Source: Closterium sp. NIES-65 (lineage: Eukaryota; Streptophyta; Zygnematophyceae; Desmidiales; Closteriaceae). From it: DNA of 64,000 nt. Position 1 is the first letter of the stretch; each line of letters opens with the position of its first letter. A model generated the notes under the pieces. That model saw only the letters and a list, made by a program, of their open reading frames with translations, did no database searches and had not been told where the DNA came from. This document shows, in pieces, positions 1,171 to 53,277 of this stretch. The DNA lies in the NCBI GenBank assembly GCA_948144175.1, contig CANXME010002461.1, positions 124,001 through 188,000 of the forward strand. Direction: 5' to 3'. Both the position numbers and the translations under genes were made by a program.

Positions 1171-2507
1171 CTGAAACGCGGACGGCAAGAGCTCCGCCGA
1201 TCCACCTCCACCGCCACCTCCACCATCACCACCACCCCCTTCCCTGAGCAGCGACTCCGTAGTGGCTCCTCTAGATTCCACAGCACCAGCAGCACCGGCA
1301 GGGTCAGCGGCATTAGAGATGGAGAAGGACCGTGAGGTGACAACACGCAGAGCCCAGCGGGCTCTCTCTCTCCCTGCCCTCGGCACGGCTACAGCAACTG
1401 CTGCTTCCATGGCTGCCATCTCTGCCGCGTATGCTCGCACCTCCGCTGCTGCTGGGCCCGACTGCAGGTGCTCTAACTCCTCGTCGCTCCAATCGGCCAG
1501 AGTCTGATGACAGGCAGGGAGGGCGGTGGTTTGAGACATCTCAAAGGTATGCCCGCACCTTTCCTGCTGCTGAAAACGACTGCAGGCGCTCTATGTCCTC
1601 GTCACTCCAATCAGCCAGAGTCTGAACTGAAGAGAGGCAGGGACGGATGTGACAGGAGAGATGGGAAAAAGGGGGAGGGGTGAGGGGGAAGTGGGGTGGG
1701 GGAAGGAAGAGACGGTATTTCAGACCATATACCACCCTCTCTCATGGTATGGTATGGTATGGTGTGCTCACTCAATATTGTGCCATTTCATACCATACCA
1801 TGCCATACCCACCCACGTACCACGCCATACCATACCACACTGTACCATACCATACCACACCGCCCTTGGTTTCAAACCAGAATATCACGTGCCTCGATCT
1901 CGCTCGGCAGCAACTCCTCCGCATACTGCCACCATATGCTGCCCGCCATCTGTTGAGACGTCTCGAAACTCGTCCCTTCCTCCTCCACCTGCGTCTGCTT
2001 TTCTCCTCCAGCCTCCATCCCCACTTCTCCTCTCCCTTCCTCCCCCTCCCCCGCGCCCATCCCACCCTCCCCTGTCCCGCAAACCGCCTGCAGCAGCGCA
2101 ATCGCCAGTCGCTGCACTGGAGTGCCGCTACCCCTTCCTCCTCCCCCTGCTGTTGACGTGGCGTGCAGCGGCACCCACAGCGTGGCGCGCAGAGGCACGG
2201 ACAGCAGAGGCGTGCCGGGGGGAATGGGGGGACGCGCGGGCACAAACGGGGGAGGAGAATGCGTAGAATGGGGAGAGGTGAGGGTTGATGGGGATGCAGA
2301 AGGCGCGGAAGCGGGAACAGAGGGACCAGCGGCGGAAGAACCTGGGTGATCCGTTGCGGGTGAACAGACAAAGAGGCCTCGTTCCCCTTCCTCCTCCTCT
2401 TCTTCCTCCCACGTTCCCGTTCTTGACTCTACTTCCTCCCGCGGCTCGACTCCCAGGCGCACCAGAGGCTCTGCTGGTTCCACGCCGATGCGCCGCCACA
2501 TGTCCAT
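1171..2507 (-). CDS. SET-domain lysine methyltransferase-like protein (LSMT/SETD3 type), 5' part
   Basis: Two exons are visible: 1878-2507 (210 codons from an ATG) and 1171-1503 (111 codons), joined in phase 0; the rest lies beyond the left edge. Exon 1 has the N-terminal SET-fold pattern GLFVCSP...IPPGTPLLSVPL, matching the family's 'GRGLVAxxxIxxGxxLLxVP', then a disordered Pro/Ser/Gly insert, then RLAIALLQAVCG and GSIWWQYAEELLP, matching the 'SFWxPYIxxLP' block. Exon 2 has LADWSDEELEHLQ and ARWALRVVTSRSFS, equivalent to the family's 'WSEEELxxLQG' and 'WAxxxxxSRAF'. The catalytic NHxxx region is not in the window. Family members methylate lysine or histidine on Rubisco, actin or ribosomal proteins; the substrate here is unknown. 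The exon 1 donor (CTG|GTTTGA) is weak. Exon 2 ends in a glycine-rich run before the donor CAG|GTTGGT. Confidence 0.72.
1429..1642. repeat. Tandem copy of SET exon 2 edge separated by a palindrome
   Basis: The segment 1429-1520 covers the first part of SET exon 2 with its acceptor. It is repeated, diverged, at about 1546-1642. Between the copies at 1530-1545 lies TTTGAGACATCTCAAA, a palindrome except for the central pair; it is one C-to-T step (on the other strand) from the perfect TTTGAGACGTCTCAAA. The outer copy encodes a similar peptide (LADWSDEDIERLQS) but soon meets a stop, so it is a decayed copy in intron 1. Confidence 0.85.
1738..1860. repeat. CATAC/GTATG pentanucleotide microsatellite
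   Basis: Runs of GGTAT at 1747-1762 and of CCATA/CATAC at 1785-1860, in opposite orientations, within intron 1 of the SET gene. The opposed GTATG and CATAC runs could fold into a hairpin. Confidence 0.85.
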
Positions 2508-3607
2508 GAACGATTGGTGCTGCTCACGTAGTGTTTTTCCCGCATTTCTTGGTGCGACATGATCTCTCGTTCCCGCCTGGCACTTAAGCGTCATTATCTC
2601 GTGCGATCTGTAGGTTGGTCGTTTAATGTCGCGATCATATTGGCATCCACATCCCGAGACTGATAATTGCGGACGAGCCGCGAAACGGGTGTGCCTTGAT
2701 CCACTGCTTCCGTCGGCCGAGCCTTCTTTCGTGGGAAGATTGCGCAGATTGAACCCCGAAGTCCGGCATGTGACGGCGTTGCCGTTTCTCGTGCTTCGAA
2801 AGGCTTGGAGCGGGAATGTACTTACTAGCGCTATCCAGGGAAGGTTCGTACGGAGTTTCCTTGAATGGGAGATTCTAGGCTGCCTGAGTATACTTGTAAA
2901 TTGGTCGGAACGGGGAGCGCGGGCCACCATGTGCGGTTTCAGAATGCGAAAATTCAAGTGTTCAGGTGGTTCTGATATAGCCCGGACCGCCGGATAATTC
3001 TTACAGGGACCATCGTAGATTGCGGGCTTCGGAAGGCTGACCAGCATTGTTCGGTTTCAAGGGCGCGTGCTGGTCAAAATCGTGCAGATTCTCACAGCAA
3101 TGAAGAGATTGTGGTGGTGAACAAGCATGGAGAAGTCCTTGGGAATGCCGTGTGGTTTGGATGAGGAGAATTTGGGAAATGAGCAGAGAGGGGAGACTGA
3201 ACCCAACCAACCGAACAACAGCAGCAGAGCCCCCCCAAAAAGCGTCGTGTTTGCGAGATTGTGGCTGTGCGAAAATGAAAGAGTTTCGTGACTAGCGGGA
3301 AAATTGCCCGATGTGGGGTCATAGGGCCAACGAAAAAGGGTTACCAATCGCGTTTGGAATGTGCAAATTCGACAAGCAGCAAAAATGGTACACCGCATAT
3401 TTCGCTCACCCCCAGGTCCCACCCAAGGTTCCTAGACCAAAATTCTTGTGCACTTGATCGTGCGCTGTTCACTCCTATGGTGAGTGCTGCAGGTTCTTGC
3501 TCCTGACTTTCTCCTGACTACTACACCGTGATCGTTTCACAATATACGTCGAGACCCGCAGCACGATCGGCCCAAGGAAACCACGGAAGTCTGTCCGTCC
3601 GTGTACC
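2508..3607. other. Intergenic region between divergent SET and mL46 genes
   Basis: About 1.1 kb between two start codons pointing away from each other, so promoters of both genes should lie here. I see no convincing TATA motif, RNA gene or repeat. Small open frames at 2626-2997 and 3057-3422 have no recognisable content. Confidence 0.6.
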
Positions 3608-6600
3608 ATGCGTCGAGCCGCAGTTCAAGCCGTTCACTTAGGCCGGCTCGCGGCCTCTGTCGCTCCTGCCGGATCCACACCATCCGGCGCGATTCCCGCT
3701 TGCCTGTCCACGTCAGCCGCTAGCAGATCGCCATGGATCGCGCCATCCCCGATGGTCAATCAAAGTGTGCCAGCTGGCACCGCTGCTGCTGCAAGATTAT
3801 TCAGCGCAGAGAGCAGCGTAGATAGCGGCTCAGCGGGTCAGCAGCTGATCGCGTCGCTATTGGTCGAGCGGCTGCCTGTCGTCATCCCGAAGCCTCCCGA
3901 ATGGGCTCTTAAATACGAGACGTTTAGGTTCGTGTATCGAGGCGCCTGGGAATCTCTCGAGGCTTTAGGCTCGTGATCGTAGTAGCCGCTTTCGCGCTTC
4001 AGGTTGATAGGTTGCGTCTAAGCCTTATCGGTTTTCTAGCATGCCAGGTGTGACAATAACGAGCACCCTTTCCCTCCCTATGCATTTGTGACAGCTTCGA
4101 GCGGAAACAGCAATACCGCAAGCAGTATCCTAAAGACTTTCTAGACGCGGCCTCTTCGACCAATGCAGGTGTGCCACGTGTCGGTTCCTTGCTTCGTTTC
4201 TCTCCCAACGGCAGATCTTCTGGCCCTTCACCCCTCCCACGTTGGCCATCCGGCCCTCACCCGCTTTTCCCGTAAAATCTCATGTTGTTGCCATCGCCAG
4301 CCTCTCCCTCCCGCATTTCCTCCCGTCGAGTCGTTCCAAAACAATTTCTGAGTCCCCCCAAACACGCCATATCCCGTTGCCCCGTTCCCAACCTCCCCCG
4401 CCCCCCCCCTCCCCGTGCACACCCCCCTCTCCTCCGCGCGCACACCCCTCTTCCCCTCCGTGCGCACACTCCTCCGCGCACGCACCCCTCTTCCCCTCCG
4501 TGCGCACACTCCTCCGCGCACGCACCCCTCTTCCCCTCCGCGCGCACACTCCGCCACGCGCGCAGCAAGCGCTGAGGGGGAAGGCGAGGAGGAGGACGAG
4601 TACTGGGCGGGAGTCCTCGAGGCGCCGTTTGACGCGCCGTCCAGACGAACCGCTGCTGACGAGGCCAATGACGTCAGGTGGGTGGGTGGGAAAGCATGGA
4701 GTAAAAGAAGGTCTCTTGCAGACAGCTTCACTGTCAAGTCAAGCACTATTAAGGTGACTTTTGAGTCGACTCAAAAGTCAGCTCTCTTGCAGACAGCGTC
4801 ACTGTCAAGCACTATTGAGCCTCCGCACCATTGCTTAGCTAAACTGCTCCTACTGTGCCTCCCACATTCCCCCATTACCCTCCCTCCGCCTCACTGACCC
4901 CTCTCCCCCTCACTGCCCCCCTCTCCTCCTCACTGCCCCCCTCTCCCCCTCACTGCCCCCCTCTCCTCCTCACTGCCCCCCTTCTCCCCCTCACCGTCCC
5001 CCTCTCCTCTCCCCCCCTCAGCAGCAGGCTCCTGCAAGGATCGCTGGACAAGCGCCTGTACCTGTTCCTTCCCCTGTTTCCCCACTCCCCCAACTTCCCA
5101 CTTCCTTTTTCCTCCCCCATCACTTCCACCCTATTTCCCACTTTCTTTCCTTCTCCCTACCCCACCCACCAGGTCCCTACAGCGGTCGAAGGACAAGCGC
5201 CCGTACCTGCTCTCGCCACGCCACTCCCCCACTCCCCCCACTTCCCGCTTCCTTCTTTCCGCCTCCCCTCTCCACCACCCACCCCCACCAGGTCCCTGCA
5301 GCGTGCACTGGACAAGCGCCTGTACCTGCTTCCCCCTCCAATCCGCCTGTACTTCCGCCTGTACCCTCATGGTGCCCCCAATCATCACCCCATCCCCCCC
5401 CGCCACCCACCAGGTCCCTGCAGCGCGCACTGGACAAGCGCCTGTACCTGCTGCTCAAGGGGCCCTCGCTTGCCGGCCAATCAGGCAGCGACACATGGCA
5501 CTTCCCCGAGAAGCTTTACGAAGGCGAAGATTCCATGCGCCAGGTGTGTTTTTCAAGCCATGTGTGCTTTACAAGCCACGTGTGCTTCATTCCAGCCATG
5601 TTTACTTGATTGATTCACATGGAATTCTTAAAAGTGACTCCGCTTCCCCCCATCCCTCCCAACCTTGCACCATGGCCTTCGTTCTTTTCTCCATCGCTTG
5701 GTTTCCTGCCCATAATCTCTTTCTCTGTTATTTCCCCTCCTCTTCTCACATTCATTCTCTCTCTCTCCGCTTCCCCCGTGCGTGCGCCTGGCCTCGCCTG
5801 GCCTGGTGTGTTCGCCTGCAGTGTGCAGAGAGGGCAGCAGCAGCATCCCTCGGTTCCTCCCTCGACCTCTACTTTGTTGGCAATGCTCCCTGCGCGCATG
5901 CTCCCATGGTAAGCCCTGCGCACATGCAATCAAGGTGGAGGGTGCACTGCATGTACGCCTGCACTTACTCGTTCCTCAGGCTCGTCCCTAGACCTCCATT
6001 TTGTTACCAGTGCTTCCTGCGCGTATGCTCCCACGGTAATTCCTATTGCTGTGTTGTGTTGCGGCATGAGAGGTGCAGGCGTGCACTACATGTATCCAAT
6101 TCTCGGGAGCCTCGTTGGCAATGTACCATGTGCCTGTGGCCCTCCTGTACCATACCCGTTGTTGCTGCGTGTGACAGTAACGAGTATGACTGGTTGTACA
6201 CCTGATACTCGCATCGACCTGCTTGGTCCATACTTGTTTGTTGTATACCCATTGTTCTCCCACAGCACCGTATGACACACCGACACACCTCATATCACAC
6301 TATACCGTACCCTCTCTCAGTCATGGGCCTGTCTCACAAGATAGGCATGGCTGTATGCCTCCCTCACACCGTCCCCCATCCCCTCACACCTTCCCTTTGT
6401 CCGTATGGTAATCTTCGTTCCAACCAGGCTCCTGCAACAGCTTTCGGTTTTTGAGTCGACTCAAAAACCGGCTCCTGCCACAGCTTTCATCTTCGGAGCG
6501 CATGTGCTAGACGACATTTGAGACGTCTCAAAAGTCTTTTCCTGCACACCTTTCCCCATCCCCACACACCTTCCCCTTTCATTCTCAAAAGCCTTTTGCT

Positions 6601-11100: not shown

Positions 11101-14100
11101 GCCGCCCCAACTGCACCATGTGGTTGGGAATGGCCGACAGAAATGATAGAGTTTTCAAACGTCTTATGAATTGGTTCGGGAATGCACAGTGGAATGATGA
11201 GTCCCTCACACCTTTCCTTTGGACATGCAGAATGGGGGATGTGAAAGTATTTGTGATATTAGGTGCCTTTATGATGCTACAGAGAGGTTATTCCATACAG
11301 CACAACTGGTGCTCTGGCCTCTCTCTAGTACCATACTATGTACCATCACAACCAGTATCCAGCTCACCCTCACAACCATGTGCACCATGCACCATGCATG
11401 GTCTACAACGCACCTCAGGCTCTGACGTGCTGTGCTCAGCTGCCCACCCCTCCAATATCGACTCGCCAGCTGGATCGTCGGGATTGGCCACCTGTGAGGG
11501 CGAAAAAGGGGGAGACGAAGGGGGGGGGAGAGAGGGGAGAGGGAAGCAACGGGAGAGTGGGGAAAGGGAGTGGGAGTGGGAGTGGGGAGAGGGACGGAGA
11601 GTGTGGGGAGAGAGGAAGAAAGGAATGAAGAGGCAAAAAGGTGACTTAGCTAGCAAGAGCGGGCTGTAAAGAAAGTATTCCGACATCTCTCATATCTCTG
11701 GGATTCTCAAAAGTCTCTCTTGAACTTTCGAACTGGTTGGTACTCGCTCAGTCCACCACACGGCTCAATGCCATCAGCACACCCAGCCACTGACGTCAGC
11801 GTGCCTACCTGGCTGCTGACGTCACGGATGAGGTCATCAAGCTGTGGGGTGGCGGAGGCATGGAAACCTCCTCCCCCCACAGCCACGTCCACGTTTATGT
11901 ATGCCATGGCTGACGTCGCCAGCACTGGCGCGTTGTCCTCTACCCATTCGGTTGACCCAAGCTGTAGTGTGACATGAGCATGAGGAAGGGCAAGGGCATG
12001 GGGAAAGAAATGGCACTTGTATATTGAAGCACTCTCCCCCCCCCCCCCCACGGCCACGTCCACGTTGATGTATGTATGCTACTGCTGATGATGCCAGCAC
12101 CGGTGCATTGTCCTCCGCCCACTCCGTTGATCCTAGCTGCAGAGACACATGAGCACGGGGAAGGGCATGGGCATGGGAAAAGAAATGGCACTTGTATTGA
12201 AGCACTCTCTCCCCCCCACCCCACACACAGCGATGTCCACGTTGATGTATGCCATGGCTGCCGTTTTCCAGCACTGGCGCATTGTCTCTCTACCCACTCA
12301 CTCGGTTGACCCCAGCTGAATTGGGGGACAGACAGGGAAGAGGATGGGGACGGGAGAAGGAAAGAGTGAGAAAACTGTGAAGTTGAGGAGTGGGGGAGAA
12401 AAAAACACATACATTGTCAGTGCAACCACTATACACTGGCAACAAGTCCTCAGTGCCAACCCCATACTGTCACAGTGGCTAACCTTTACCGTCTCCCTTC
12501 TACTGTCATAGTGTCACCCCATACCGTCACCCCTACATTGTCACCTCACCCCTCTATAGTCACACTCACACATCCGTACTCCTCAGCATCCCAGCTGGCA
12601 AACACCAGCGAGCGGCGAGGCGACCAACCATGTGTCGCCATGTGGCCAAACGCACGCGCCACCTGGCGAGGGCGGGGAGCGGGAGATTGGGTGGAGAAGA
12701 AGGGGTGGGGGAAGAGAGTATTTATGTGAATGATACGATAAGAAATGCGTGTGATAAACGGTGCAACAAGATTGGTAAGTTGGGCCTTATGCAAAGACGA
12801 ACCGAGTCATCACTTCGGCACGCTCCATTGCTCCAACCTGATAAGGTGGAAGAGCAGACAAGGAAGGGAAGGCACTTTCATTCTTCAGGCACCCAAAAGA
12901 ATGAAAAGGACAAGCTAAGGAAGAGGATGCATGGATGGAGCGCAGTGCAATGGTTAGGAAATGGATGGACGCAATCGGGATAGGCAGTGGTACCTCGAGC
13001 AAGCAGGTGGTGCCGCTGTTGGGGTCTGCAGCGCCAAACACCCATGCATCCCGATGGTTGCCCAGAATGATGTACCTGCACACATGGTGGCGGTGTGGTG
13101 GCGGCAGCAGGGTCGGCGGGGGCGGGGGTGGTGGTGGTGGGGGGGGGGGGGGGGGGGGGGGGGGAAGGGGAGGTGTATTGACGTGATGTTATTGACTTTC
13201 ACATGAAACGAGGACAGAATGCATCACAATCTCAGAACTGACAAAAGCATAGCTGAAATACAGTAATGCGTGGCACTCGCGGCAATGGCACCAGGGACAG
13301 ACAGCCACGGTGGCTTCAATTCAGTGAAGGTGGCAGATCAGACACCCATCATTCCACAACCGCCGCTGCCCTCAGCAGCGCACCTGTCGGGCTGGTGGGA
13401 GCCTGGCAGCACGCCAATGACGTTGCGGATGGTGGTGACTGTGGCGTTCATATGTGGAATCAGCCAGTCCAGTATCCCAAACTCACTCCTGCCCGCTGCT
13501 CACCTGTCCGGCTGGTGGGAGCCTGGCAGCACGCCAATGACGTTGCGGATGGTGGTGACTGTGGCGTTCATCTGCGATCAAACCAACAGATGGTAGGAGA
13601 AGATCCCAAAACAATGGGCAGGGGATGCGGAGAGCGGGCAGGAAGAATCAAGCAGGTGTGAAGGATGAGAGTGGAGAGATGAGGGATGGATGAGATGGGG
13701 TGGGATGGATGGCTCCAAGTAAGGTGCATCACCCCCACACTCACTCACTCACTGTAACACATGGCGGCAGATACACGTATCATGTACGTGCAAGTGGTAC
13801 TGCATGCACGCATGGTTGCATGCACGCATGGTTGCATGCACGCATGGTCGCATGCACGCATGGTCGCATGCACGCATGGTCGCATGCACGCATGGTCGCA
13901 TGTACGCATGGCCGCACGCACGCAACCACGCTCGCAAAATTCACACGACCTCTTCCCCATGCACTCTCTCACCTGCACCTCCAGGTCAACTGCAGCAGGT
14001 CCGGGTCCAAACACGTACTGCACGCGCGGCCTGCCACTGCACCATGTGTGATAAGTCGAGTTTTGAGTCGACTCAAAGCTCGACTTATCACACACGGTCA

Positions 14101-16048
14101 ACAGCAGCAGGTCCGGGTCCAAACACGTACTGCACGCCTGGCCTGCTGCCACCGCACCACTCCTTCGGCACAGCCCTGCCCCCCATGTGCGCCATCACTG
14201 CCCCCCATGTGCGCCATCACTGCCCCCCATGTGCGCCATCACTGCCCCCCATGTGCGCCATCACTGCCCCGGCCACCGAATACCCCACCGCCCACCCGCC
14301 CCCCAAGCGCGCCCTCTCACCTGCACCTCCAGGTCAACCGCAGCGGGTCCCGGCCCAAACACATACTGCACGTCTGTCATGCCGCCCTGCCACTCCTCCG
14401 GCACCGAACTCCCTCCCATGTGCGCCATCACCGCCCCGGCCACCGAATACCCCACCGGCAGCACCGGGATGCGTGGCAGGCGCTTGGCTGTTTCCTTGTG
14501 GCTTAACCGTTCCCCTCCAGGGTGGGACGGCCAACCGGGGGTGGCAGGGTCGCCCTTGCCTGGGAAAACCACGGGCAGGAGAGGAGAGGGATGAGTCCGC
14601 ATGGTCTGCATGGTCCGCACGGTCCGCATGGTCCGCATGGTCCGCATGGTCCGCATGGTCCGCATGGTCTGCATGGTCCGCATAGTCGCATGGCGCATAG
14701 TGGTGCATGTATGAAGACCATTGCATCATCGCATCAGCATGGAGGTAGGTATTATTCTAGATGGTGCCTCTCTGGGCGCCAGTCACACATGGCCATTGCT
14801 CCTGGGCTTACACGCGCCGTGCACCGGTGCCTTACCTGTGTAGATGGTGCCTCGCTGAGCGCCAGTAGCAGGCAGCCATTGCTGCTGCGGGTACACATGC
14901 TCCGCATCTGTGCCCTCTGGTGCGTAATCCGCTGGGTCAGAGTACAGCAGCACTGCTGCCACGCCGAACCTCTCTGCATTCCGAACCTGACGAACAGGTT
15001 CGGTACAAAAGGATGGACGTTCGTTATTTGGGGGGAAAGCGCCGGAGGGAGGGCGGAAATTTGGGTTGGAAAGGGGACCGTTTTCACATGGAAGAGTCTG
15101 GCTTGCTGACAGAATACGAACTGTATGTGCTCACCTTATCCCCTCTAAAAGTCTTTCCATAACGAATCAGCGCCACTGCGCCTTTCACCTGCTCCTCCCC
15201 AATCGCCGCCACCAGCTCTTCAAAATCTTCCATGCGCCCATAATTCGCATATACCACCGCCGCTCCTTCTGCTTTTCCCGCTCCTTCCCCCTCCGCCTCC
15301 TCCTCTCCCGCCCCCTTTCCGCTCACCCTCCCGCTGGCCTTCCCGCCGACCCTCCCGCTACCGGAATACGCGTTAAAAGGATCAGTGGCGGCGCGCGAGG
15401 CGCTAAACGGGTCGCCGTGGACGGGTTCCTCGCGCAGCGAGAAGTTGCGCGCGACGGGGCGCACGAGGCGGAGCGACTGGCGCAGCGGGTAGGAGAGCAG
15501 CACGGGGTAGTCCGCGTAGTGCGCGCGCAGCCCGTACGACTGCCGTGTGATGCGGGGAAGTGTGTGTGGGGAGGGAGAGAGGGGGCATGGGGGAAAGGGA
15601 GGGGGGGGAAGAGATGGTTGGGAAGGTGAGATGGACGAAAAGAGTTGATGGGATGTGAAATCCTATGGTGATGCGGGCACGTGACACGATGAGACTGAAT
15701 GAAAATTTTACCCATAAAGTCTCGAATTCACACCTCGAATTTCTCCTTGACGTAACGAGCAGTTGCGAAGTTTTCGGGGGTGCCTGCGATGTGCGGCTTG
15801 GCGGTGAGCTCCCGAAGGTGCAACGCGAGGCTCTCATTGGACACGAGCGAAAAGAGCTTCGGCAGAAACCCGCAGCTCAACCCGCCCTCATCGCGACCGT
15901 CCACCGACGAACCGGCGTCGCGAGATTCGTAAGCGAGGCGCGAGAAGAAAAGAAAGGTGAATAACCCCAAGGTCAGCGCTAGCGGAACGTATGCGAAGGC
16001 TGTTCGCGGTCTGGCTGCGGTCTGCGGAAGCAACGATGAGCGATCCAT
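8153..16048 (-). CDS. Glutamate carboxypeptidase II-like metallopeptidase (AMP1/NAALADase family, M28)
   Basis: Thirteen exons, 782 residues (human GCPII 750, Arabidopsis AMP1 about 706): 15734-16048, 15135-15539, 14836-14986, 14321-14559, 13504-13571, 12994-13075, 12570-12662, 11809-11961, 11414-11491, 11023-11110, 10388-10689, 8549-8674 (or -8644) and 8153-8401. Every junction keeps phase. A signal anchor ([15 protein letters not shown]) sits near residue 25, so a type II membrane or ER protein is expected. All zinc ligands and the catalytic Glu are in place: GNHRDAW (His), GAADPNSG (Asp), SWDAEEYG (catalytic Glu and ligand Glu), YINVDVAV (Asp) and YPMYHSVYD (His). It should cleave C-terminal glutamate from peptides; AMP1 acts in plant hormone and meristem control, but the role here is unknown. 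Exon 2 carries a Gly/Ala/Glu-rich insert. The exon 12 start is the one uncertain boundary. Introns are full of decayed exon-edge copies. Confidence 0.93.
8659..9815. repeat. 22-bp minisatellite (about 36 copies) in GCPII intron 11, flanked by exon 12 edge copies
   Basis: From about 8816 to 9612 the unit CATGGGGCATCCCCTCCCCC plus TC is repeated about 36 times with near identity; two copies lack three bases. The same 22 bp occurs singly at 8678-8699, right at the exon 12 acceptor, and at 9736-9757. A longer flank (GTGCACCTGCACGCGCTGCT..., then CTGCAATGCGCTGTGGTGGT) is present three times, at about 8699-8750, 9611-9662 and 9758-9812. The array therefore seems to have grown out of the exon 12 boundary. 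Long overlapping open frames here are artefacts of the 22-bp period. Confidence 0.93.
10089..10372. repeat. 15-bp minisatellite and decayed exon 11 3'-edge copy
   Basis: About 13 copies of GCTGTGCACCCCACC lie at 10173-10363 in GCPII intron 11. Next to them (10089-10176), read on the minus strand, is a decayed copy of the end of exon 11: it still encodes [12 protein letters not shown], against the real [12 protein letters not shown], and then stops. Confidence 0.88.
10752..10824 (-). repeat. Decayed copy of GCPII exon 11 5' edge
   Basis: The sequence at 10752-10824 (CCATCCAAATGGTAGTTGTT then CACACACTGTGGTACACGG) repeats the start of exon 11 and its acceptor at about 10640-10695. It sits in intron 10 with several substitutions. 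Confidence 0.75.
12060..12325 (-). repeat. Two decayed copies of GCPII exon 8 5' edge
   Basis: The first part of exon 8 (acceptor, then codons for [25 protein letters not shown]) is present again at about 12060-12150 and 12230-12325. The nearer copy keeps acceptor CTGCAG and [16 protein letters not shown] but is shifted by an extra CATA. The farther one has an extra GAGT that creates a stop. Only the copy at 11809-11961 stays open to a donor. Each copy ends in a run of C on the plus strand. Confidence 0.9.
13100..13165. repeat. G-rich microsatellite in GCPII intron 5
   Basis: GGCGGGGGCGGGGGTGGTGG passing into a near-pure G run of over 20 bases at about 13138-13164. On the gene strand it is a C-rich tract upstream of the exon 6 acceptor. 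Confidence 0.9.
13384..13451 (-). repeat. Near-perfect duplicate of GCPII exon 5 without its acceptor
   Basis: This 68-bp segment matches exon 5 (13504-13571), differing at one or two positions and encoding the same peptide [20 protein letters not shown]. The real copy is preceded on the minus strand by GCAG. Here the equivalent bases read ACAT, so the acceptor AG is missing, though a donor-like GTGCGC follows. Including both copies would disturb the frame (68 is not a multiple of three). Confidence 0.9.
13798..13930. repeat. 16-bp minisatellite GCATGCACGCATGGTY
   Basis: About seven to eight copies with T/C changes at the last base, in GCPII intron 4. CATG/GCATGC palindromes recur in every unit. 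Confidence 0.9.
13970..14170 (-). repeat. Two extra copies of GCPII exon 4 3' edge around a 50-bp palindrome
   Basis: The last part of exon 4 with its donor (plus strand CTGCACCTCCAGGTCAAC, then GCAGCAGGTCCGGGTCCAAA) is repeated at about 13974-14045 and 14097-14165, before the real exon at 14321-14559. Between the copies, 14045-14094 is a 50-bp palindrome with 24 of 25 pairs matched and core TTTTGAGTCGACTCAAA. Confidence 0.92.
14176..14272. repeat. Short minisatellite CCCCCCATGTGCGCCATCAC
   Basis: Four to five tandem copies of a unit of about 22 bp in GCPII intron 4. The motif CCCATGTGCGCCATCACCGC also occurs inside exon 4 (around 14415), so the array looks derived from coding sequence. Confidence 0.88.
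14596..14695. repeat. 9-bp minisatellite CATGGTCCG
   Basis: About ten tandem copies with minor variants, in GCPII intron 3 just upstream (in the gene sense) of the exon 4 acceptor. Confidence 0.88.
14754..14815 (-). repeat. Decayed copy of GCPII exon 3 3' edge
   Basis: GATGGTGCCTCTCTGGGCGC followed by CAGTCACACATGGCCATTGC repeats the exon 3 end at about 14841-14895, with about 80% identity by eye, inside intron 3. Confidence 0.8.
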
Positions 16049-16720: not shown

Positions 16721-19312
16721 ATGTCACTTGGCCTACAAACAGCCCCACTGCCGCCGTTCTTAAAATATGAGGGACAACCACAGCAAGTGCCAGACAGTCA
16801 AGGCACGGCGTTACCTGCGCTAGAGCAGCTTCCGCCTTTGCCGACTCCCTGTACGCGATTGGAAGTAGACCTTTATCGCCTGTTGCGATGCTGCGAGCGC
16901 ATCGCACGGAGCCAATCAGCAGCCGAGCTGCAACGAGATTTCAAGTTCCACAACGTGGGTGAGATTGCGAGCGAGCCGTTGATTCATTTCACAGCTCTTC
17001 CGTTCACCGATATGTGCTCGTCACAGCTCCTTCGGTCACGGTTTTGTTTTTTTTTAGGCGACTTAAAAATCTTTCGGTCTAGAGTGGTCGATCACACACA
17101 GATGCCTTTCAGAATGCAGGCTGATTGCCTCGATTGCGTCCGGCTTTGCCTCTCAACTGGTGACCTAGCCTCCCATCCTTCTCTTCAAACCTTCCCGATT
17201 CCGCTCGTCAATCCCTATGCCAATCCCTATGCCAATCTCAATGCCAATCCCAATGCCAATCCCTATGCCAATCCCGCTCTCCCGCAGTACGTCGCGTATC
17301 TCCGCGAGCTCTTTGCGCAAGTGCAGCAGGAGTCAAGAGCCGACTCAGCAGGCCGGTCTGCAAGGTACAGTGCAGCTATCAGCAAGGGCAATAGCATTCT
17401 GTTTGCCGTTTTCGGGTTAAGAGGCGGCTTTTGAGAAGTCTCAATTTCGGGTTAAGAGACGACGTTTGAAGTGCCTCAAAAGAGCAGACACAGCAGGCCA
17501 GTCGGCAAGGTACAGTGCAGGTGTCAGCAAGCGCAACAGCATCCTGTTTGCAAGTCCTTTTCGTCAATCAGCTTCATGCTGTTTTCCCCACTTGCAGCTT
17601 GACTGTTTACTGTAGAGACAATCTGTGTTAGGCTGTTCGGTGGTCCCTTCCTCCAGTCCTACCCTGCTCCAGTCCTACCCTGCTCCAGTCCTACCCTGCT
17701 CCAGTCCTACCCTGCTCCAGTCCTACCCTGCTCCAGTCCTACCCTGCTCCAGTCCTACCCTGCTCCAGTCCTACCCTGCTCCAGTCCTACCCTGCTCCAG
17801 TCCTACCCTGCTCCAGTCCTACCCTGCTCCAGTTCTACCCTGCTCCAGTTATACCCTGCTCCAGTCCTACCCTGCTCCAGTCCTACCCTGCTCCATTCCT
17901 ACCCTGCTCCAGTCCTACCCTGCTCCAGTCCTACCCTGCTCCAGTCCTACCCTGCTCCAGTCCTACCCTGCTCCAGTCCTACCCTGCTCCAGTCCTACCC
18001 TGCTCCAGTCCTAACCTGTTCCAGTCCCAGCTTACAAAACATTCCTTTCTATACAACGCACAATCATTTCCGGTTCCCTTGCCACTGCATTGCGTCCCTT
18101 TCTGCAGCCTCCCTGTTTCGGCAGCAGCGCAAGCCCAGGCGGCAAGGGCGGAGGCGTACCTTCAGCGAATCACTTTGTTGGCTGACTTGCTGGAAGAGCA
18201 CGTGCTGGTAACGAGTTATATGATGTGTATGTTTCATGTGAATCGGATGACTCGTGTGATTCTTATGTATCGTACAAATCGGGTCTTTTGCAGTGTTTCT
18301 TTTGGTGGCATATAATATAACCCTTCTTACTGGATGACCATGTGCTGGCAGCTGACTAAGCTTCACTGATTAGTCTTGCGATTCCGTTGTGTGTTGTCAC
18401 TTGCTTCCCGAATCACCAAACTGATGTCTTCCTGCACCTCATCTCACCAACCACAGCCTGACATGTGGCACATGCCGGACAGCCTGCCTCTTCAGGACGA
18501 ATGCCAGCTGGACGCCTTGGTACCTCAAGATCCCAACCTATCATCAACCTTCAGAGGAATCAAGCCTGCTCAATCCCATCAGCAGCAGCAGGGAGAAATC
18601 GAAGGAGGTGCCTTGCGGGGCTATGTGCCATATTCTGCAGCCTTTGCGGGTGGGCAAGGCAGGGAGGCGTTGGGCCTTCGATCACGCCGCCGCCAGTTGA
18701 GGGGTCGGCATGGGTAGGTGCTAGGTGGTGGCCATGATCCGTGATGCCATGCCATGCATGCATTCATGCCTTCATTTTTTTTGCTAAGGCGATCCTTCAC
18801 GCTGCAGCTCTTCTTCATGACCAGTGACCCGTGGCTAGGTGGTGGCCATGATCCGTGATGCCTGCCATGCATGCGTACATGCCTTCACTTTCTTTTTACT
18901 TCATGTAGGTTGTTGGTGCTTCAAAACCCATCGAATTGTTTTTCGGTGCCTTGTGCTGGTTGGTTGTATTTTGAGACGTCTCACAACTTCATCTATTCCT
19001 TTTGTGATGGCTTTCCACTGAACTCCGTAGCACTTTCCCATGCATGCATTGTTTGGTCTGTTGGGCAGGCCGACTTCCAGAGATCACCGACCAGGTTCTT
19101 CTCTCCCTGGGTCATCCCTGGACGATGCATCAAGAGCAATCATTACAACCCATAAGTAATGCTTTGTAATGTTCTTGCAGCATCACTTGCTTCTTCTCAG
19201 CTGATCTCCTTCAAACTTGCTTGCATATTCTCTCCGCAATTTCTACCCTGACCCTCCCCCTGCTTGCACTCCTATCTCGCTCGCTCTTCTCCACCTCGCC
19301 TCCCCCCTTTTC

Positions 19313-39787: not shown

Positions 39788-39814
39788 GGAGGACCTCCTT
39801 AGGGGGGGGGGTAG

Positions 39815-40133: not shown

Positions 40134-40705
40134 GGGCGGGTCCAACTCATATCAATTTGGCGGTATGCAACTTCCGTAACGAATTGCCAACTATCCGAGT
40201 TTTAAGCAGGGGATCCGAAGTCAGGCACGTGCCATGTCCAGGAGGGCCTACGCGGACTCCAGTTCCCGCCCGTTTGAACTGCCAGGCCTACGCGGACACA
40301 GCATCCCGCCCATGCGCTCAGATTTTGGACGAACACATTTGGTTCGCGAACGCTAAACTTGTCGATTGGGTAACTAGGGTTTTGGGGAAAAAAATGTGGG
40401 AATCGACATTGCGCCACATCATATTCTCGCCCCGCGCATCCAAGCCGCGCCGCAACAAACACATTGAAAATCCCTCTCGCGGGATCTATCACACTTCAGA
40501 ATAGACACGCCTCTCCAGTTCTGGTCCACCGTCTGCTTGCATTCTCTGCTGAAAATATTAATACGACTCATTGTACGCAAAAGCTTCAGCAAGATCACAC
40601 CATGTCTACCCCTCCAATTAGGATGTCCGCCATATTGCACCATGGATTCGTATCAGTTGTCGTCGCTCCAATCGGTGAGGTGCTGAAGTTGTGGCTGCCG
40701 ACTCC
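40134..40705. other. 5' flank of the Harbinger transposase gene
   Basis: About 570 bp between the gypsy LTR and the transposase start. A sequence beginning GGGCGGGTCCAACTC abuts the LTR and may be the left end of the Harbinger element, but I found no inverted partner to the right. A short upstream ATG at 40642 followed by GTGAGG could be a small first exon. Confidence 0.5.
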
Positions 40706-46000: not shown

Positions 46001-46404
46001 CGAATGCACATCGTGATCTGAAATGCGACTGGTTTTGCAAGATGGGAAACTGAGCACGTCATCCAGACTGTTTTCGAATCTTGATGCGGTTACCCTACAA
46101 AAAAGGGTTACTGTTCCCCAAACTGACCTGAGCTGTGATGAGCTGCCCGCCCTCAATTGCTCTCGTAACAATCAGCGTGCTTTCACTCAGGTACTTCATT
46201 GTGGAAAGCGGTGATAGCCAAAACAAACATTCACCGTCGTAAACCGCACAGCATGCCTTGTACCCACACCCTCGTGAGGCGTCATCTGCTCTCACGCCAA
46301 GCAAGCGGGTGGCTCAGAAGTCGCCACGTGGTGCTGTTCAGGAAACATAAACATTTTTCGATCAGCTATTATTTATCGAACCACATCGGGCTTGACCATT
46401 GACC
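43098..46404. other. AT-richer region without recognised genes
   Basis: About 3.3 kb of lower GC than its surroundings. It presumably includes the right end of the Harbinger element and the EBP promoter. Small open frames occur at 44448-44885 (-) and 45120-45392 (-) without recognisable domains. Related AAAGTTGC and CCAAAAAG fragments occur near 43245-43280 and 45340-45405, suggesting old repeat debris. Confidence 0.5.
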
Positions 46405-47951: not shown

Positions 47952-49490
47952 ATATCATATAAAAATTTGTTGTAGGGACTGAGGCATTATGGCAAGGGTG
48001 TTGGGAGTTTACACCATGATGCCTGATATTCAGAAAACACTTGTACAATGCCGTGCTAAGCTCCAGTGTTACGTATATATCGTTTGGTACAGAATATGGA
48101 ATGTTAATATCAAGTCTCGAGTCCACAGCCCAGCGGTCAGCCTTACTAAGGTTGAACAACTTGGGCTGCGGGCTTTAACGGTGTCATCCTACTGGAACTT
48201 CCAGAAGTTAGAACGAAAAATCTGCTTCTTGTTGATTGGTTGTTTTGGGTCTGACTCGCGGCCCTGTCAGAAACGAAGTGGCAATCGAGGCTCTCTGAGC
48301 CACACGTATTTCCACGCAGGAGATTCGAGAGAGATTCACCCTCCGCGCCACGTGCGAGAAAGACATTCTCCACGCACCAAGAACAGAGCATCACACACAC
48401 ACTCACAAAACTGTATTTCTAGCAGCTGATGCCCATTCCGCGGTTATGTTTGCTCGTGTTTCAGATCGCCTTCCTGGGGTGTCCGGACATTGAAGTGGGG
48501 ACAGCGAAAAGTGCATTCCGCGCGTGCAAGAGATTGGGGTAGGATGATGAGGTGGAGGAGGAACGAATCTGGACGTCGCAATTGTTCAGAGGTCCCCAAC
48601 GTGCGAACACCCCTCATGATCGGACGGTTGGGCTTGACCAACTAGATTTGAGATGCGATCACAGATCGTAGATGGAGTCGTGCAGGAAATGTTGATCGCA
48701 CACTGGAGAGTAGGTGAGAGCGTGAAAGCAGCGTGGAAGCAACGTGAAATCTGCCACGCTGGACCCAGATAGTTGTACTTTTGGGGGCTGTCCTGTCCCA
48801 AGTTCGCAGGAAGGCGATCTCACACTTCCTTCTCCTGGCGTCCCGCTCCCTCGCAGATGCATGTCCCGTTCGCTGTGGAGGGACGCGTGGCGGGAGAGAC
48901 GGTGAGAAAGTCGAGCACGTGTGCCTCGCCTTTCCTCACTTTCTTGGGGAAGGGAAGAACCGAGGACGGTGAGTTCGTGGCCGAGGTTAAAAGGAATTGC
49001 TGGCTCTAGGGTCCTGCGTGCCGCACTCGATTCAACGACGCACTCAGAACGTGCTAACGATCACTAACTCCTTTTCTCCTTAAAGACACCTCCATTGTCC
49101 TTACTGAACTGGCTACGCTGTCTCGGCTCCAGAACCCGCCGACAGTTAAAAAGAACCCTGCGACGCGCAGATAGACAGACTCGTCTGGAGGGACTGACCG
49201 AGGATTGCAAGAGTGTTGAGACGTCTCGAAAGTCGTCTTCGAGGAGCCGACCCAGGACCCAGGAGTAGACTTTCGAGTCGACTCAAAAGTCAACTCGTCT
49301 ACGAGGATCCGACCCAGCAACGTGAAACACCCAGGATCCAGGAGGACTAGGAGACTGTGTTGCAGATTGAGATTCTTTACGTCGACTCAAAGATCGCAGG
49401 AGGAGGAGAAGGAGGAGGGGACTGTGCTGCAGATCAAGGAATCGCAGATTGTGATTCGTTCAGAATCACACTGGAACAGGAATTGCAGAC
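47952..49490. other. Intergenic region, EBP to ferroportin, with palindromes
   Basis: No gene is recognised over about 1.5 kb. From 49208 two palindromes (49213-49230 around TTGAGACGTCTCGAA, and 49268-49291 around TCGAGTCGACTCAAAAGTC) flank a repeated segment: TCGTCTTCGAGGAGCCGACC at about 49232 and CGTCTACGAGGATCCGACCC at about 49295. This lies 200-280 bp upstream of the ferroportin start, likely in its promoter or 5' UTR. Confidence 0.65.
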
Positions 49491-52334
49491 ATGGCCAGCG
49501 AGTGCGGTTTCCGAGCCGATCCCGGAGACGAATCCGGGGATCCGCTACGCAGCAGTCGCATCAGCAGCAGCAGCACCAGCGTTGGTCTCGAGGAGACGCT
49601 TCTATTGGCTGGCGACGCCCCTTCCTCCGCTGCTCTCGACGAATCACAAACCAAGCTCAGAACAAAAAGAAAGAAATCCAAGCACGCGCGAGAGCGCACA
49701 AGGCGGCGCAAGTCCGCTCTGGCCCTTGGGAACTGCGATAAACAACACGCAGCAGATTCAGATTCCCGTTATAAAGCTTCTCAATACAAGCACTCTGCGC
49801 CTCTTCCGCATCGAGTCATTCAGCTCGTGAACGCCCTCCAGGCTGCCCTCTCTCCGAGACTTCCCTCGAAGCTTCCTCATAAGGCGACTCTCTTCGCGCT
49901 TTACGTCTCTCATTTCCTCTCCCGATGGACCAATCGCTTGTGGGAATTCGCGGTGCCGCTCTTTCTCCTAGACTCCTCGTACACTGCCACGTCAGCTTCC
50001 TCTTCCTCCTCTACAGTCACCTCCGGTAGTAGCGCCGGATCAGCCTCTTTGCTCCTCGTGGCGCTTTACGGACTTTCCGAGTCGCTCGCGATGTCTTTAT
50101 TCTCCGTCCCCATAGGAACGTGGGTGGATCTTTGTCCGCGTTTACCACTAGCTGCCTTCGCTATCTCCGCTCAAAATGCCGCTCTGTTTCTCGCCGCGAT
50201 TGCCGTCGCCGCTCTCCTCTACCTCGCCGACTTTCTCGCCGCACCCGCCGCCGCAAGTTCCGCTGGGCCTGATCTTTTCGCATGGGTGACCGGAGCAGCC
50301 GAAACGGGAGCTGACGTGGCGCTGGTGGCGGCGGTTTGCGTGCTGGGCGCTGCGGCTGCTCTCGCCGGATTGGCGCGCGGGATCGCGGTGGAACGTGATT
50401 GGGCAGTGGTGATTGCGGATTGGGTTTGCGAGCAGGAAGGTGCTGCGAATTTGAAAAGGGGATGTGGGCGGCAGGGGGGATGGGAGGACAGGGGGCAAGA
50501 CGAAAGGGAGAGAGGAGGGGGAGTAGTGGAGGTGGTGGTGGGAAATGAGGAGGATGCGACTAAAAAGCAGGTGCCGTTCGATAACGGGGAGGCTTGTAGC
50601 GAATCAGCGCGGCGGGAGAGAGAGGAGGGGGGGAGGGACGGGGGGGGAGAGCATCACTTGCGGACACACGTTGTAGAAGAGAGTGGAGTCAGCGAAGCAG
50701 GGGGGGGAGGGGATGCGGACGCTAATTGCCGGGACAAGGCAGCGCAGACACAGGAGGTTCTGTCTGTGCAGCAGCAGGGGCAGCAGGAGGGGAGGGAGGG
50801 ACAGCAGGGACAGCAGAGACAGGAGCAAGAGCAGCAGGGGAGGGAGCAGCGGGAGCGCGTGCGAGCGCGGCTCAACTCCACTCTTCGCACCATCGACCTG
50901 CTCTGCCGCCTGCTCGCCCCGGCCGTCACTGGCGCCCTCATGGCCGCTGCTGTCTCTGCATCCACGTCCGCCTCCGCCTCCGCCGCCTCCCCCTCCGCCA
51001 CTCCCCCTTCCGCTGTTACATCTCCAGCGTCGCCCGCACGTCACGAGTTACTGCCCGTGTCGCTGCCGCTCGCCATGGCAGTGTGGGTCCTCGTGGCCGC
51101 TGCTGCGGAGCTGCTGCTGCTGGCGCTTGTCCACTCGCAGGTGCCCGCGCTGGGGGAGAGGCGCAAGGAGAGAGCAGGGGAGGGAATGGTGGAGGACGAA
51201 AGGGCTGGTGAGAGGGAGAGAGAAAGTGAGGGAGGGGAGGAGGAAGAGGTGGAAGAAGAGGAGGACGAGGAAGCGGAGGAGGAAGAGGAGGAGGAACAAG
51301 GGAGAGGGAGAGGGGTGGGGCGTGGAGGGGATGATAAGAATGGAGCGTTGGATGTTAAGAGTCGAGTGAAAGCACAAGGGGACAATGGGAAGGAGCATGA
51401 GGGAGGGGATGGGCAGATCCTGGTCCCTTCAGCAGCTAATCCAACCCCACCTGCTCCTATCACCCCTTCAGACTCCCCAGCCGCCCCTATCATCACCACC
51501 ACCACTACCACCAGAAGCAGCAGCAGCAGCGAGCCTCCCCTCATCCCCTCCACCGCCCACAACCCTTCCTTCTTAAACCACCTGCTCTCCTCCCTCCACC
51601 ACCTCCGCCTCCTCCTCACCTCCTGGCTGACCACCCTTCGATCCGCCTGGACAGTTTACCTCCGCCAGACCTCCCTCTTCCCCTCCCTCGCCCTTGCCCT
51701 TCTGTACCTCACTGTCCTCTCCTTCGGATCTCTCATGTGCGCCTATCTGCACTCCCAAGGCGTCCCTCTTGGTCTCCTAGGCTCGGCAAGCGGAGCCGCG
51801 GCTGTCACCGGCGTGCTCGGGGCAACCCTCTTCCCGAGCCTCTGCGCCAGGCTCGGGCCGAGCCGGACCGCCGAGGCTTCCGTGTGGTCGCAGCTGGCGT
51901 GCCTCCTGCCGTGTGTCGTCGCGGGATTGGTTCTCCAATCGTCAGGGCCGATACCAGCAGTGCTGCTGATGGCAGGAGTGGTGCTCTCAAGAGCTCCTCT
52001 CTGGGTGTTTGATCTGTCTGTGCTGCAGATGGTGCAGGGGGCGGTGGTGGAGGAGGAGAGAGGCGCGGTGGGGGGAGTGCAGGAGTCGTTGCAGCAGGGA
52101 ATGCAGCTGGTAGCGCTGGTGCTAGCTGCGGTGATCAGCAGACCGAGGGATTTCTGGGTGCTGACGACGGTGTCGGGAGGGGCTGTGATGCTGGCTGCGG
52201 TGCTGGTGAGTGTGGATCGTAGGCTGAGGGGAATCTTGAGACGAATCAGGAGAGGTGGTTGGCAGAGGCAGGCCGAGGGACTCATGGGAGTTGACGGCAG
52301 GGCTGGGAGTGGCGCAGGTGCAGATGAGGTTTAG
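49491..52334 (+). CDS. Ferroportin-family metal exporter (SLC40A/IREG-like)
   Basis: A single 947-codon exon, well over the usual 500-600 residues. The family signature is at residues 136-160 (LYVSHFLSRWTNRLWEFAVP), followed by LVALYGLSESLAMSLFSVPI and GTWVD. Later come LRTIDLLCRLLAPAVTGALM, VYLRQTSLFPSLALALLYLT, APLWVFDLSVLQMVQ and ERGAVGGVQESLQQGMQL, all matching ferroportin helices. Two large hydrophilic insertions, about residues 320-465 (Glu/Gln/Gly-rich) and 555-680 (nearly pure Glu/Asp/Arg then Thr/Ser/Pro), enlarge loops. The 130-residue N-terminal extension is Ser/Arg/Lys-rich, so plastid targeting, as for plant IREG3/MAR1, is possible but unproven. It probably exports Fe(II) or related metals. 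The lack of introns contrasts with its neighbours. Confidence 0.87.
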   Translation: MASECGFRADPGDESGDPLRSSRISSSSTSVGLEETLLLAGDAPSSAALDESQTKLRTKRKKSKHARERTRRRKSALALGNCDKQHAADSDSRYKASQYKHSAPLPHRVIQLVNALQAALSPRLPSKLPHKATLFALYVSHFLSRWTNRLWEFAVPLFLLDSSYTATSASSSSSTVTSGSSAGSASLLLVALYGLSESLAMSLFSVPIGTWVDLCPRLPLAAFAISAQNAALFLAAIAVAALLYLADFLAAPAAASSAGPDLFAWVTGAAETGADVALVAAVCVLGAAAALAGLARGIAVERDWAVVIADWVCEQEGAANLKRGCGRQGGWEDRGQDERERGGGVVEVVVGNEEDATKKQVPFDNGEACSESARREREEGGRDGGGEHHLRTHVVEESGVSEAGGGGDADANCRDKAAQTQEVLSVQQQGQQEGREGQQGQQRQEQEQQGREQRERVRARLNSTLRTIDLLCRLLAPAVTGALMAAAVSASTSASASAASPSATPPSAVTSPASPARHELLPVSLPLAMAVWVLVAAAAELLLLALVHSQVPALGERRKERAGEGMVEDERAGERERESEGGEEEEVEEEEDEEAEEEEEEEQGRGRGVGRGGDDKNGALDVKSRVKAQGDNGKEHEGGDGQILVPSAANPTPPAPITPSDSPAAPIITTTTTTRSSSSSEPPLIPSTAHNPSFLNHLLSSLHHLRLLLTSWLTTLRSAWTVYLRQTSLFPSLALALLYLTVLSFGSLMCAYLHSQGVPLGLLGSASGAAAVTGVLGATLFPSLCARLGPSRTAEASVWSQLACLLPCVVAGLVLQSSGPIPAVLLMAGVVLSRAPLWVFDLSVLQMVQGAVVEEERGAVGGVQESLQQGMQLVALVLAAVISRPRDFWVLTTVSGGAVMLAAVLVSVDRRLRGILRRIRRGGWQRQAEGLMGVDGRAGSGAGADEV

Positions 52335-52366
52335 GGGTGCTGAACGTTCACTGCACACATGGACTA

Positions 52367-52525
52367 CCGTAATCCCCCGTATATAAGACCCCCCCCCAGT
52401 TGTAGACCCCCGGGTCTATAATACGGACCCGGGTACTCTATTCGAGTCTAGTTGAGTTATACCCCCCAGCCTTTTTAGGGGTGATTATCATAATACCCTA
52501 GGGTCTTATATACGGGGGATTACGG
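52367..52525. mobile_element. MITE with 26-bp inverted repeats, mariner/Tc1-like
   Basis: The left end CCGTAATCCCCCGTATATAA continues GACCC. The right end is its reverse complement (GGGTCTTATATACGGGGGAT then TACGG), essentially perfect. It is flanked by TA on both sides (52365-52366 and 52526-52527), as in Tc1/mariner target duplications. A second palindrome (ACCCGGGTC...GACCCGGGT-like) lies inside. It has no coding capacity and sits 30 bp after the ferroportin stop. Confidence 0.87.
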
Positions 52526-53277
52526 TACATGGCTACCGTATCCACTTCAGATATAGTTGCACGTGTGCTGGTCATTTTTATGTATTTGTGTCTGTGTACA
52601 TAGGCGTCAACGACACGCAACGAACGATGGCGGTGGGCCGGTGGCATGGCATGGCATGCCGTTCTTACTGCAATACATGTGTGGATAATTCACATGAATG
52701 GCATGAAAGCATTACACACGAGGCCATCCCAAGTGTCATGAATAACTCCCCCCTGATGTACCTGCAACCTCTGTTATAAATACTGTACGGTTTGTATATA
52801 TGGTACATCACAATATACAATTTTAATCAGTACCTCATGTACAATTATCTCATCCCTACAACCCCGCCTCCTACTACCTCCACAAGCAGGCTTCTCAAGC
52901 CTCGGCTCAAACGTCTCCACTCCACTACCTGTCACACAAGAGCGTCACATTCCTTAAACACCACCTCTTTTGAGTCGACTCACACACGTCTCCACTCCAC
53001 TACCATTCAATTCAACCATTCACACAAGAGCGACACACTCCTTGAACACCACCTCTTGCACACTTGCCATTTCTGCAATCCCCTCCTCCGACATACTCTC
53101 CAGCCTCCTGCACCCAAGCACCACCACTCTTTCCAACTGACCGACCCAATTCCATGATGGAAGCCGGCAAACTCCTTAGGCTTTTGCACAGCCCCAACTC
53201 CAGCACCCCTAGACTCGGCAGCTCTCCCCTAAAGTTTGCCCATGTCGAATGTAAGTGCTCCAACCGTCTCAATACAG
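52526..53277. other. Intergenic: 3' flank of LRR gene with decayed gene-end copies
   Basis: About 53010-53260 is a decayed copy of the last 250 bp of the LRR gene; on the minus strand it still reads LGVLELGLCKSLRSLPASIM. Further out, CGTCTCCACTCCACTACC-type segments at 52911-52967 and 52988-53060 are repeated around TTTTGAGTCGACTCA (52968-52982). The rest (52530-52900) is AT-rich without recognised genes. Confidence 0.8.

Follow-up and report, generated by a model that had tools for sequence, protein, structure and literature searches.

Short palindromes between direct host repeats in the nuclear genome of Closterium, a candidate mobile element

Short dispersed palindromes are known from bacteria, where the REP/REPIN sequences and the Rickettsia palindromic elements are larger or looped and are not known to have long target duplications. 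Palindromic repeats have also been described from organelles. As far as the cited parts of these papers go, GC42, one of the GC clusters of yeast mitochondria, has a putative AG target duplication (PMC4478555), the RHE hairpin elements of sponges are organelle palindromic repeats (PMC2800124), nuclear copies of the Volvox organelle repeats were judged to be inert organelle transfers (PMC2670323), and in the LIMP/HyLIMP repeats of Lobosphaera complementary stem changes are kept in both arms (HyLIMP) (PMC4524435). Here we report a family of palindromes, TTTTGAG-WCGW-CTCAAAA, from Closterium sp. NIES-65, a single-celled green alga closely related to land plants, in a genus whose genome size differs between strains (PMC10407611, cited in part). 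The family was noticed in a 64-kb stretch (the window; C2163:124001-188000, on contig CANXME010002461.1) of an assembly of 874,075,685 bases in 2,400 contigs. A reading made from the sequence alone had listed eleven such palindromes there and claimed that they sit exactly between tandem duplications. On balance, and with modest confidence, we favour a nuclear mobile palindrome of Closterium that entered staggered breaks at random positions, the flanking repeats having been made when these breaks were filled in.

The Closterium palindromes resemble the organelle palindromic repeats in being very small and present as many dispersed copies; their mobility is argued here from one empty site and from flanking repeats. 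They differ in several respects, as far as the organelle repeats are described in the parts cited. LIMP, HyLIMP and the Volvox repeats have a loop of 3-7 nt, whereas the centre of the Closterium palindrome is loop-free and self-complementary. GC42 duplicates only AG, whereas the Closterium duplications are 11-108 bp long. The organelle repeats sit in organelles, whereas the Closterium palindromes are nuclear and number tens of thousands of copies; the size of the assembly (874 Mb) and the presence of long terminal repeat (LTR) elements and of genes such as that of an SNF2 protein in the window indicate a non-organelle location. Short tandem host copies of similar size have also been attributed to offset breaks, by CST-Pol alpha fill-in or as the 'patch-mediated' duplications of rice (PMC8355091, PMC7407515, each in the part cited). 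A random position without a target motif is common to such break-repair duplications and the Closterium sites. However, a conserved palindrome in the joint is not mentioned in the cited part of PMC8355091 or for the rice work of Vaughn and Bennetzen as cited in PMC7407515, and Closterium joints carry a recurrent one. Miniature inverted-repeat transposable elements (MITEs) and DNA transposons share with the family an inverted repeat, direct repeats and a high copy number, but the direct repeats in Closterium are long and of varying length, and conservation is higher at the centre than at the ends. The symmetrical proliferating introns of fungi have no flanking duplications, according to the part of PMC8469720 cited.

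The family is abundant. With up to 3 mismatches, TTTTGAGWCGWCTCAAAA matches 13 times in the window, where 0.02 matches are expected. These matches include all eleven palindromes of the sequence-only reading, an observation that extends to the whole genome; the two extra matches, at 17051 and 56868, have 3 mismatches and are doubtful. Genome-wide, the exact pattern TTTTGAG-WCGW-CTCAAAA occurs 18,241 times (reversed-pattern control, 0), and TTTTGAG-NNNN-CTCAAAA, with any centre, 30,327 times (reversed control, 4), well above the expectation from composition. Bacterial and archaeal contigs totalling 257 Gb contained only 25 stretches with the WCGW pattern. Chance or composition as the origin is ruled out by the counts against the reversed controls, the expectation and the prokaryote contigs. 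The window holds 9 sites with at most 2 mismatches per 64 kb, from which recognisable copies would be of the order of 100,000 per genome, an extrapolation from one window. IMG/VR contains one exact copy of the ACGT core and none of the TCGA core, which gives no sign of a viral family. Some arms are reminiscent of the transposon ends of library kits; an origin from sequencing adapters is opposed by the varied arms and the flanking repeats. A search of the window against Rfam at the gathering score returned one transfer RNA (tRNA) only and no other known RNA family.

The palindromes of the window and their flanking host repeats are as follows (no strand is assigned; the sizes given are those of the left and right copies).
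1429..1528, host repeat, left copy (100/105 bp pair, 78% identical)
1529..1546, decayed palindrome GTTTGAGACATCTCAAAG, 3 mismatches (pattern scan)
1547..1651, host repeat, right copy, 105 bp (alignment)
1951..1968, palindrome with ACGT centre, 2 mismatches; flanking repeat not found
4709..4753, host repeat, left copy (45/40 bp, 82% identical; a 30-bp stretch 93%)
4754..4779, inserted palindrome GTGAC-TTTTGAGTCGACTCAAAA-GTC, exact core, 26-bp perfect palindrome
4780..4819, host repeat, right copy (alignment)
6423..6445, host repeat, left copy (23/22 bp, 91% identical)
6446..6466, inserted palindrome with TCGA centre (perfect palindrome of 26 bp with CGGT/ACCG arms, about 6445-6470)
6467..6488, host repeat, right copy (alignment)
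6516..6533, palindrome with ACGT centre, 1 mismatch; flanking repeat unconvincing (score 9.7)
13984..14044, host repeat, left copy (61/64 bp, 89% identical)
14045..14095, long-armed insert of 51 bp with arms TGTGTGATAAGTCGAG / CTCGACTTATCACACAC and TCGA centre
14096..14159, host repeat, right copy (alignment)
17429..17446, decayed palindrome with 3 mismatches; by eye, roughly 20 bp of host sequence are repeated, one copy on each side
18969..18986, palindrome with ACGT centre, 1 mismatch; flanking repeat not found
49214..49231, palindrome with ACGT centre, 2 mismatches; precedes a second palindrome in the same repeat array
49230..49255, 26-bp host repeat, left copy, before the second palindrome of the array (88% identical)
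49271..49288, palindrome with TCGA centre, 1 mismatch; second in the array
49292..49317, 26-bp host repeat, right copy (alignment)
52911..52967, host repeat, left copy (57/70 bp, 74% identical)
52968..52985, palindrome with TCGA centre, 2 mismatches
52986..53055, host repeat, right copy (alignment)

Direct repeats, 74-91% identical, were thus found at 1529, 4759, 6449, 14061, 49271 and 52968, which correspond to the six places (about 1530, 4755, 6445, 14045, 49268 and 52971) for which duplications had been claimed. Two further sites, 17431 and 6517, had been called similar, which is borne out by eye at the first and is unconvincing at the second. The statement that the palindromes lie exactly between tandem duplications does not hold for every site, since no repeat was found at 1951 and 18969. 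The roughly 30 kb from 18987 to 49213 are without a family palindrome (up to 3 mismatches). This stretch holds copia (22596-28456), gypsy (30427-31764) and DDE_Tnp_4 transposase (40691-41779) genes; either the transposable elements are younger, or the palindromes avoid them.

Flanks were read in 264 kb of sequence (the 64-kb window and 20 regions, part of it N) and in nine 3-kb loci. The regions, about 200 kb, were selected around exact core matches on few contigs and are a non-random sample; the comparison of flanks with controls covers this part of the genome. A repeat score alone is common, so that a plain control of random places is too weak, and the controls were therefore the score of abutting repeats at random places and that at local places shifted by 250-450 bp. 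In anchored alignments, an abutting direct repeat with a score of at least 15 was found at 70 of 91 sites and at 61 of 400 random places. Fifty-nine sites were isolated, having a core with at most 3 mismatches and no other family site within 160 bp. Direct repeats of 11-108 bp (median 43), ending on either side no more than 26 bp from the core, enclose 42 of these; L004:1501, which is among the 42, sits in a satellite. A score of at least 15 was reached at 38/59 isolated sites versus 53/286 shifted places (odds ratio 8.0, p = 9e-12), at 9/65 other palindromes (arms of at least 6) and at 30/41 family cores with at most one mismatch. The excess of flanking repeats expected from the sequence-only reading is therefore clear in this part of the genome. 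A search blind to the core, for short tandem duplications whose copies are 14-60 bp apart, found 87 of them, and 25 of the gaps contained a palindrome (arms of at least 8, one mismatch allowed). GAGNNNNCTC was present in 24 of the 25, and shuffled gaps gave palindromes in 4/87. The other 62 tandem duplications had no such palindrome, although 6 of them still contain GAGNNNNCTC. At the 82 repeat ends of 41 sites (the satellite site excluded), no target motif was found, the lowest p being 0.16, though weak motifs could escape. A homing-type target and the nick motif of a long interspersed nuclear element (LINE) were also considered, and no such signal was seen at these ends. By eye, a 1-nt overlap of host and arm seemed frequent at the joints, but the sample is too small and the placing of the boundary biased, and we draw no conclusion from it.

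The centre of the palindrome is nearly always self-complementary. TCGA and ACGT together account for 18,127 of the genome-wide WCGW centres, versus 114 for the asymmetric ACGA and TCGT (55 and 59). These two cores had been recognised from the window; there are at least four self-complementary centres, since GCGC and AATT occur too. Within the sequence read, 110 distinct sites match the 14 arm letters with no more than 2 mismatches; their centre was TCGA in 42, ACGT in 23, GCGC in 17, AATT in 8 and others in 20. When any centre was allowed, 46 of 50 among the matches listed, from contigs C6, C9 and C10 with arrays included, had one of these four, and the remaining four had one-transition mutants of them.

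The arms are mirrored as well. In the sequence read, 164 of 170 half-cores have a partner within 2 mismatches and 6 are unpartnered. At 40 sites, hand-picked mostly for a good core and a flanking repeat and some for long arms, 82.5% of arm cells pair, and sliding the partner by one column lowers this to 46-51%. Double-changed cells numbered 79 at these sites versus 35.5 after shuffling, and none of 500 shuffles was as high. Their paired columns 7-28 comprise 18 AU, 8 GC and 0 GU, while the outer columns 1-4 contain some G-U and many unpaired cells. At the 110 distinct sites, which were selected irrespective of pairing, z was 6.7, 5.4, 3.0, 2.8 and 2.4 at five core-adjacent positions. Outside TTTTGAG, the arms are variable yet mirrored. 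The sequence-only reading had proposed that symmetry, not one sequence, matters. This is half right: the four self-complementary centres and the mirrored spacers agree with it, but the sequence itself is conserved in TTTTGAG and, where copies are longer, in AG and CACGTG.

The longest copies reach about 54 bp, with CACGTG, five letters, AG, five letters, TTTTGAG, the four central letters and the mirror of this arm. CACGTG-N12-TTTTGAG-NNNN-CTCAAA occurs 1,175 times genome-wide (597 + 578; control, 0). In 100 of the 1,175 rows there were 59 distinct N12, in which position 6 is A in 56 and position 7 is G in 52, the other positions being loose. The form AG-N5-TTTTGAG-NNNN-CTCAAAA-N5-CT occurs 3,335 times (control, 0), where about 118 (30,327/256) would be expected with random AG and CT and equal letter frequencies. 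Fifty listed places of this form represent 32 distinct elements, among which 29 different spacer pairs occur. In the 29 pairs, 113/145 letters are mirrored, versus 56.9 in shuffled pairs (sd 6.3; maximum 78 in 2,000 shuffles); in all 32 listed elements, 127/160 letters are mirrored (shuffled 61.6, sd 6.8). Twelve pairs are perfect mirrors, each with a different spacer; by centre, they include 4/6 with ACGT and 2/3 with AATT. Exact CACGTG is kept on both sides in 2/98 elements (from 100 of the 1,175 rows), and both arms are therefore seldom complete together. Most inserts read end before CACGTG, at varied points, and the smallest are about 18 bp. We also considered a longer element with terminal inverted repeats. 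A clear inverted repeat beyond the arms was found at L028:667 (score 20, perfect over 20 bp, 23 and 33 bp outside the palindrome), where no direct repeat was found, and weak ones at L012:1501 (10.0) and L035:4359 (10.5; control 95th percentile 10.5). This makes no general rule.

One locus points to the insertion event itself. At L013:1501 the order is repeat, AGGTGAC, core, G, repeat; in the paralogue, in L003, the palindrome is absent and the 20-bp repeat is present only once. In addition, repeat divergence rises with core decay, being 8.4, 12.9, 13.7 and 14.4% at 0, 1, 2 and 3 core mismatches (n = 25, 8, 4 and 5, small groups). Because the empty site lacks both palindrome and second repeat, and because divergence tracks core decay, duplication at insertion is preferred to later duplication; palindrome and duplication were probably born together and then decayed. 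Arrays of host unit and palindrome are common, such as those of 64-bp period in L035 and 37-bp period in C6. Two arrays contain different palindromes among three copies of one host unit. In L005 (1442-1518) these have GCGC (1442) and ACGT (1501) centres, and in the window (49214-49288) ACGT (49214) and TCGA (49271) centres. Fresh insertions therefore seem able to hit the same place. In L015:2395-2675, a palindrome with a GCGC centre forms a 24-bp satellite of at least 11 units. The interpretation in the sequence-only reading is partly supported. Its tiny insertion element fits the same sequence at tens of thousands of places, the repeats at most isolated copies and the one empty site. As to its idea that the element provokes duplication later on, the empty site and the divergence trend make duplication at insertion the likelier course.

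We propose the following sequence of events. The complete form would be a dyad of about 54 bp, CACGTG-n5-AG-n5-TTTTGAG-(self-complementary 4)-CTCAAAA-n5-CT-n5-CACGTG, of which most copies read lack the outer parts of one arm or of both, the shortest measuring about 18 bp. Entry may take place at a randomly placed staggered break, with offset nicks overlapping by 11-108 nt. Fill-in of both overhangs would turn the overlap into two tandem host copies, and the palindrome would be sealed into the joint in the same event, as the empty site and the matching decay suggest. Both arms may be made from one arm, for example as identical half pieces on both break ends that would be joined by self-complementary 4-nt tips. 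We infer a single source for both arms from the self-complementarity of almost all centres and from the mirroring, within each copy, of spacers that otherwise vary freely. A hairpin intermediate alone would leave the self-complementarity of the four central (loop) letters unexplained, whereas two identical ends joined by a 4-nt tip would explain it. The constant spacing of the CACGTG, AG and TTTTGAG blocks suggests a putative dyad-binding protein that recognises them. Later, unequal exchange between repeats could produce the arrays and short satellites. Both elements of the break step have parallels. Short tandem duplications arise at breaks with complementary 3' protrusions (PMC8355091, part cited), and insertions of the tandem-duplication kind in rice have been ascribed to asymmetrical nicks (work cited in the relevant part of PMC7407515).

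A more specific proposal is tentative, and we hold it to be possible but rather doubtful. The unit that spreads would be a single arm of about 27 nt. A predicted, dedicated dyad-binding machine would attach identical arms to the two ends of a staggered break and join them through the self-complementary 4-nt tip. Every new insertion would then start out perfectly palindromic and carry a mirrored 'barcode' of its own, and gap filling would duplicate the target. If so, a selfish element and a break-sealing system would be combined in one.

Several observations weigh against insertion with duplication at staggered breaks. A flanking repeat was not found at 17/59 isolated sites, and some of these have good cores (L012:1501, which is exact; L028:667; window 18969). 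Some of the sites without repeats are probably chance matches or old. Control places also score (61/400 and 53/286), because the Closterium genome is rich in tandem repeats. A search for empty sites with 42 joined flanks against the loci read gave one clean case, that of L003 for L013:1501; the L013 counterpart of L003:1501 matches on the right side only. In an earlier set of 33 isolated sites, which scored GCGC cores as 2 mismatches and included some misaligned long repeats, core mismatches and repeat divergence were uncorrelated (Spearman 0.02, p 0.92). Ages and fractions are biased because the regions read were selected around exact matches on few contigs, and the sites for arm pairing were hand-picked. 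Furthermore, spacers were perfectly mirrored in 0/3 pairs with a GCGC centre and 3/13 with TCGA; mismatched spacer letters may come either from decay after insertion or from arms unequal at birth.

A MITE, whose transposase would bind the inverted arms and cut with a fixed stagger, is an unlikely alternative. It would account for a dispersed inverted repeat with flanking direct repeats. The spaced conserved blocks look like protein contacts, with CACGTG as the common outer end of 1,175 arms, and the window contains the DDE_Tnp_4 transposase gene. However, DDE transposases are known to produce one short duplication length, and the repeats at the 42 sites range from 11 to 108 bp (median 43). The centre is best conserved while most ends are ragged, only 2/98 listed elements keep CACGTG on both sides, and the 82 repeat ends gave no target motif.

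Variable duplications would rather be expected if a small hairpin RNA were retroposed by a LINE- or Penelope-like element and the direct repeats were its target-site duplications. Target-primed reverse transcription typically gives truncated copies and target duplications of variable length, and lengths of 11-108 bp agree with this. We nevertheless regard retroposition, too, as unlikely. Inserts inspected by eye have no common tail or constant 3' end, both ends being ragged, and no nick motif was found at the 82 ends. The loop of an RNA need not be self-complementary, yet the centre is so in 46/50 among the matches listed, and the inner paired columns swap A-T to G-C without G-U intermediates.

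In a third alternative, the palindrome would have arisen first by other means, and its hairpin would later have provoked copy-back duplication of the flank, with a second palindrome skipped. Palindromes stall replication, the arrays show that later duplications do occur at family sites, and 17/59 isolated sites have no repeat found. But at the empty site both the palindrome and the second repeat are missing, and repeat divergence rises with core decay in the 59-site isolated set, although not in the 33-site set. The two arrays in which different palindromes separate the same host unit point to new insertion, not copying. This order of events is thus improbable.

Fold-back (snap-back) end-joining of local sequence, the other explanation in the sequence-only reading, would leave inverted filler at duplication joints and fits the mirrored arms, as synthesis-dependent end joining yields direct or inverted templated repeats (PMC7407515, part cited), but it is highly improbable, and as a purely local process it is rejected as the sole cause because the core is conserved everywhere, the same 18 letters (two centres) lying at 18,241 places, which local templates cannot produce.

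Insertion of a palindrome at staggered breaks thus remains the reading that we prefer, and the family looks like mobile or break-repair DNA of a kind not described before in the nucleus. Literature searches within open-licence PMC brought up no such element, and 14-letter cores with TCGA, ACGT and GCGC centres occur in none of the open-licence PMC papers searched. The word 'palindrome' is not used in the main text of the Closterium genome-size paper PMC10407611. If our reading is true, the nucleus would have, in this family, its own abundant equivalent of the organelle palindromes, whose mode of movement is still debated (PMC4478555, PMC2670323, parts cited). The mirrored spacers and the self-complementary centre amount to a specific, testable claim on how a palindrome is copied. 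Genomes often gain new sequence through small tandem duplications, which are seldom marked by their maker. Here a large set of joints bears a recognisable mark, by which the process could be dated and counted, and strains compared for it.

The window has a G+C content of 57.8% and contains further tandem repeats. A 30-bp array of 32 copies (99% matches) occupies 1-966, from the first base, and 8819-9612 holds 36 copies of a 22-bp unit. Near 6430-6840, exon-like tandem copies seem to be present by eye, and an SNF2-domain stretch is tandemly repeated at 59989-61018 with a period of about 146 bp. An open reading frame of 947 amino acids at 49491-52334, between two palindrome sites, matches ferroportin (FPN1, PF06963, E 4.5e-89). 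The tRNA gene lies at 55327-55399 on the minus strand. A leucine-rich repeat (LRR) reading frame is found on the minus strand, too, at 53278-55164; a protein from Closterium sp. NIES-64 matches 68% of this frame at 93% identity, ahead of matches in other Closterium strains.

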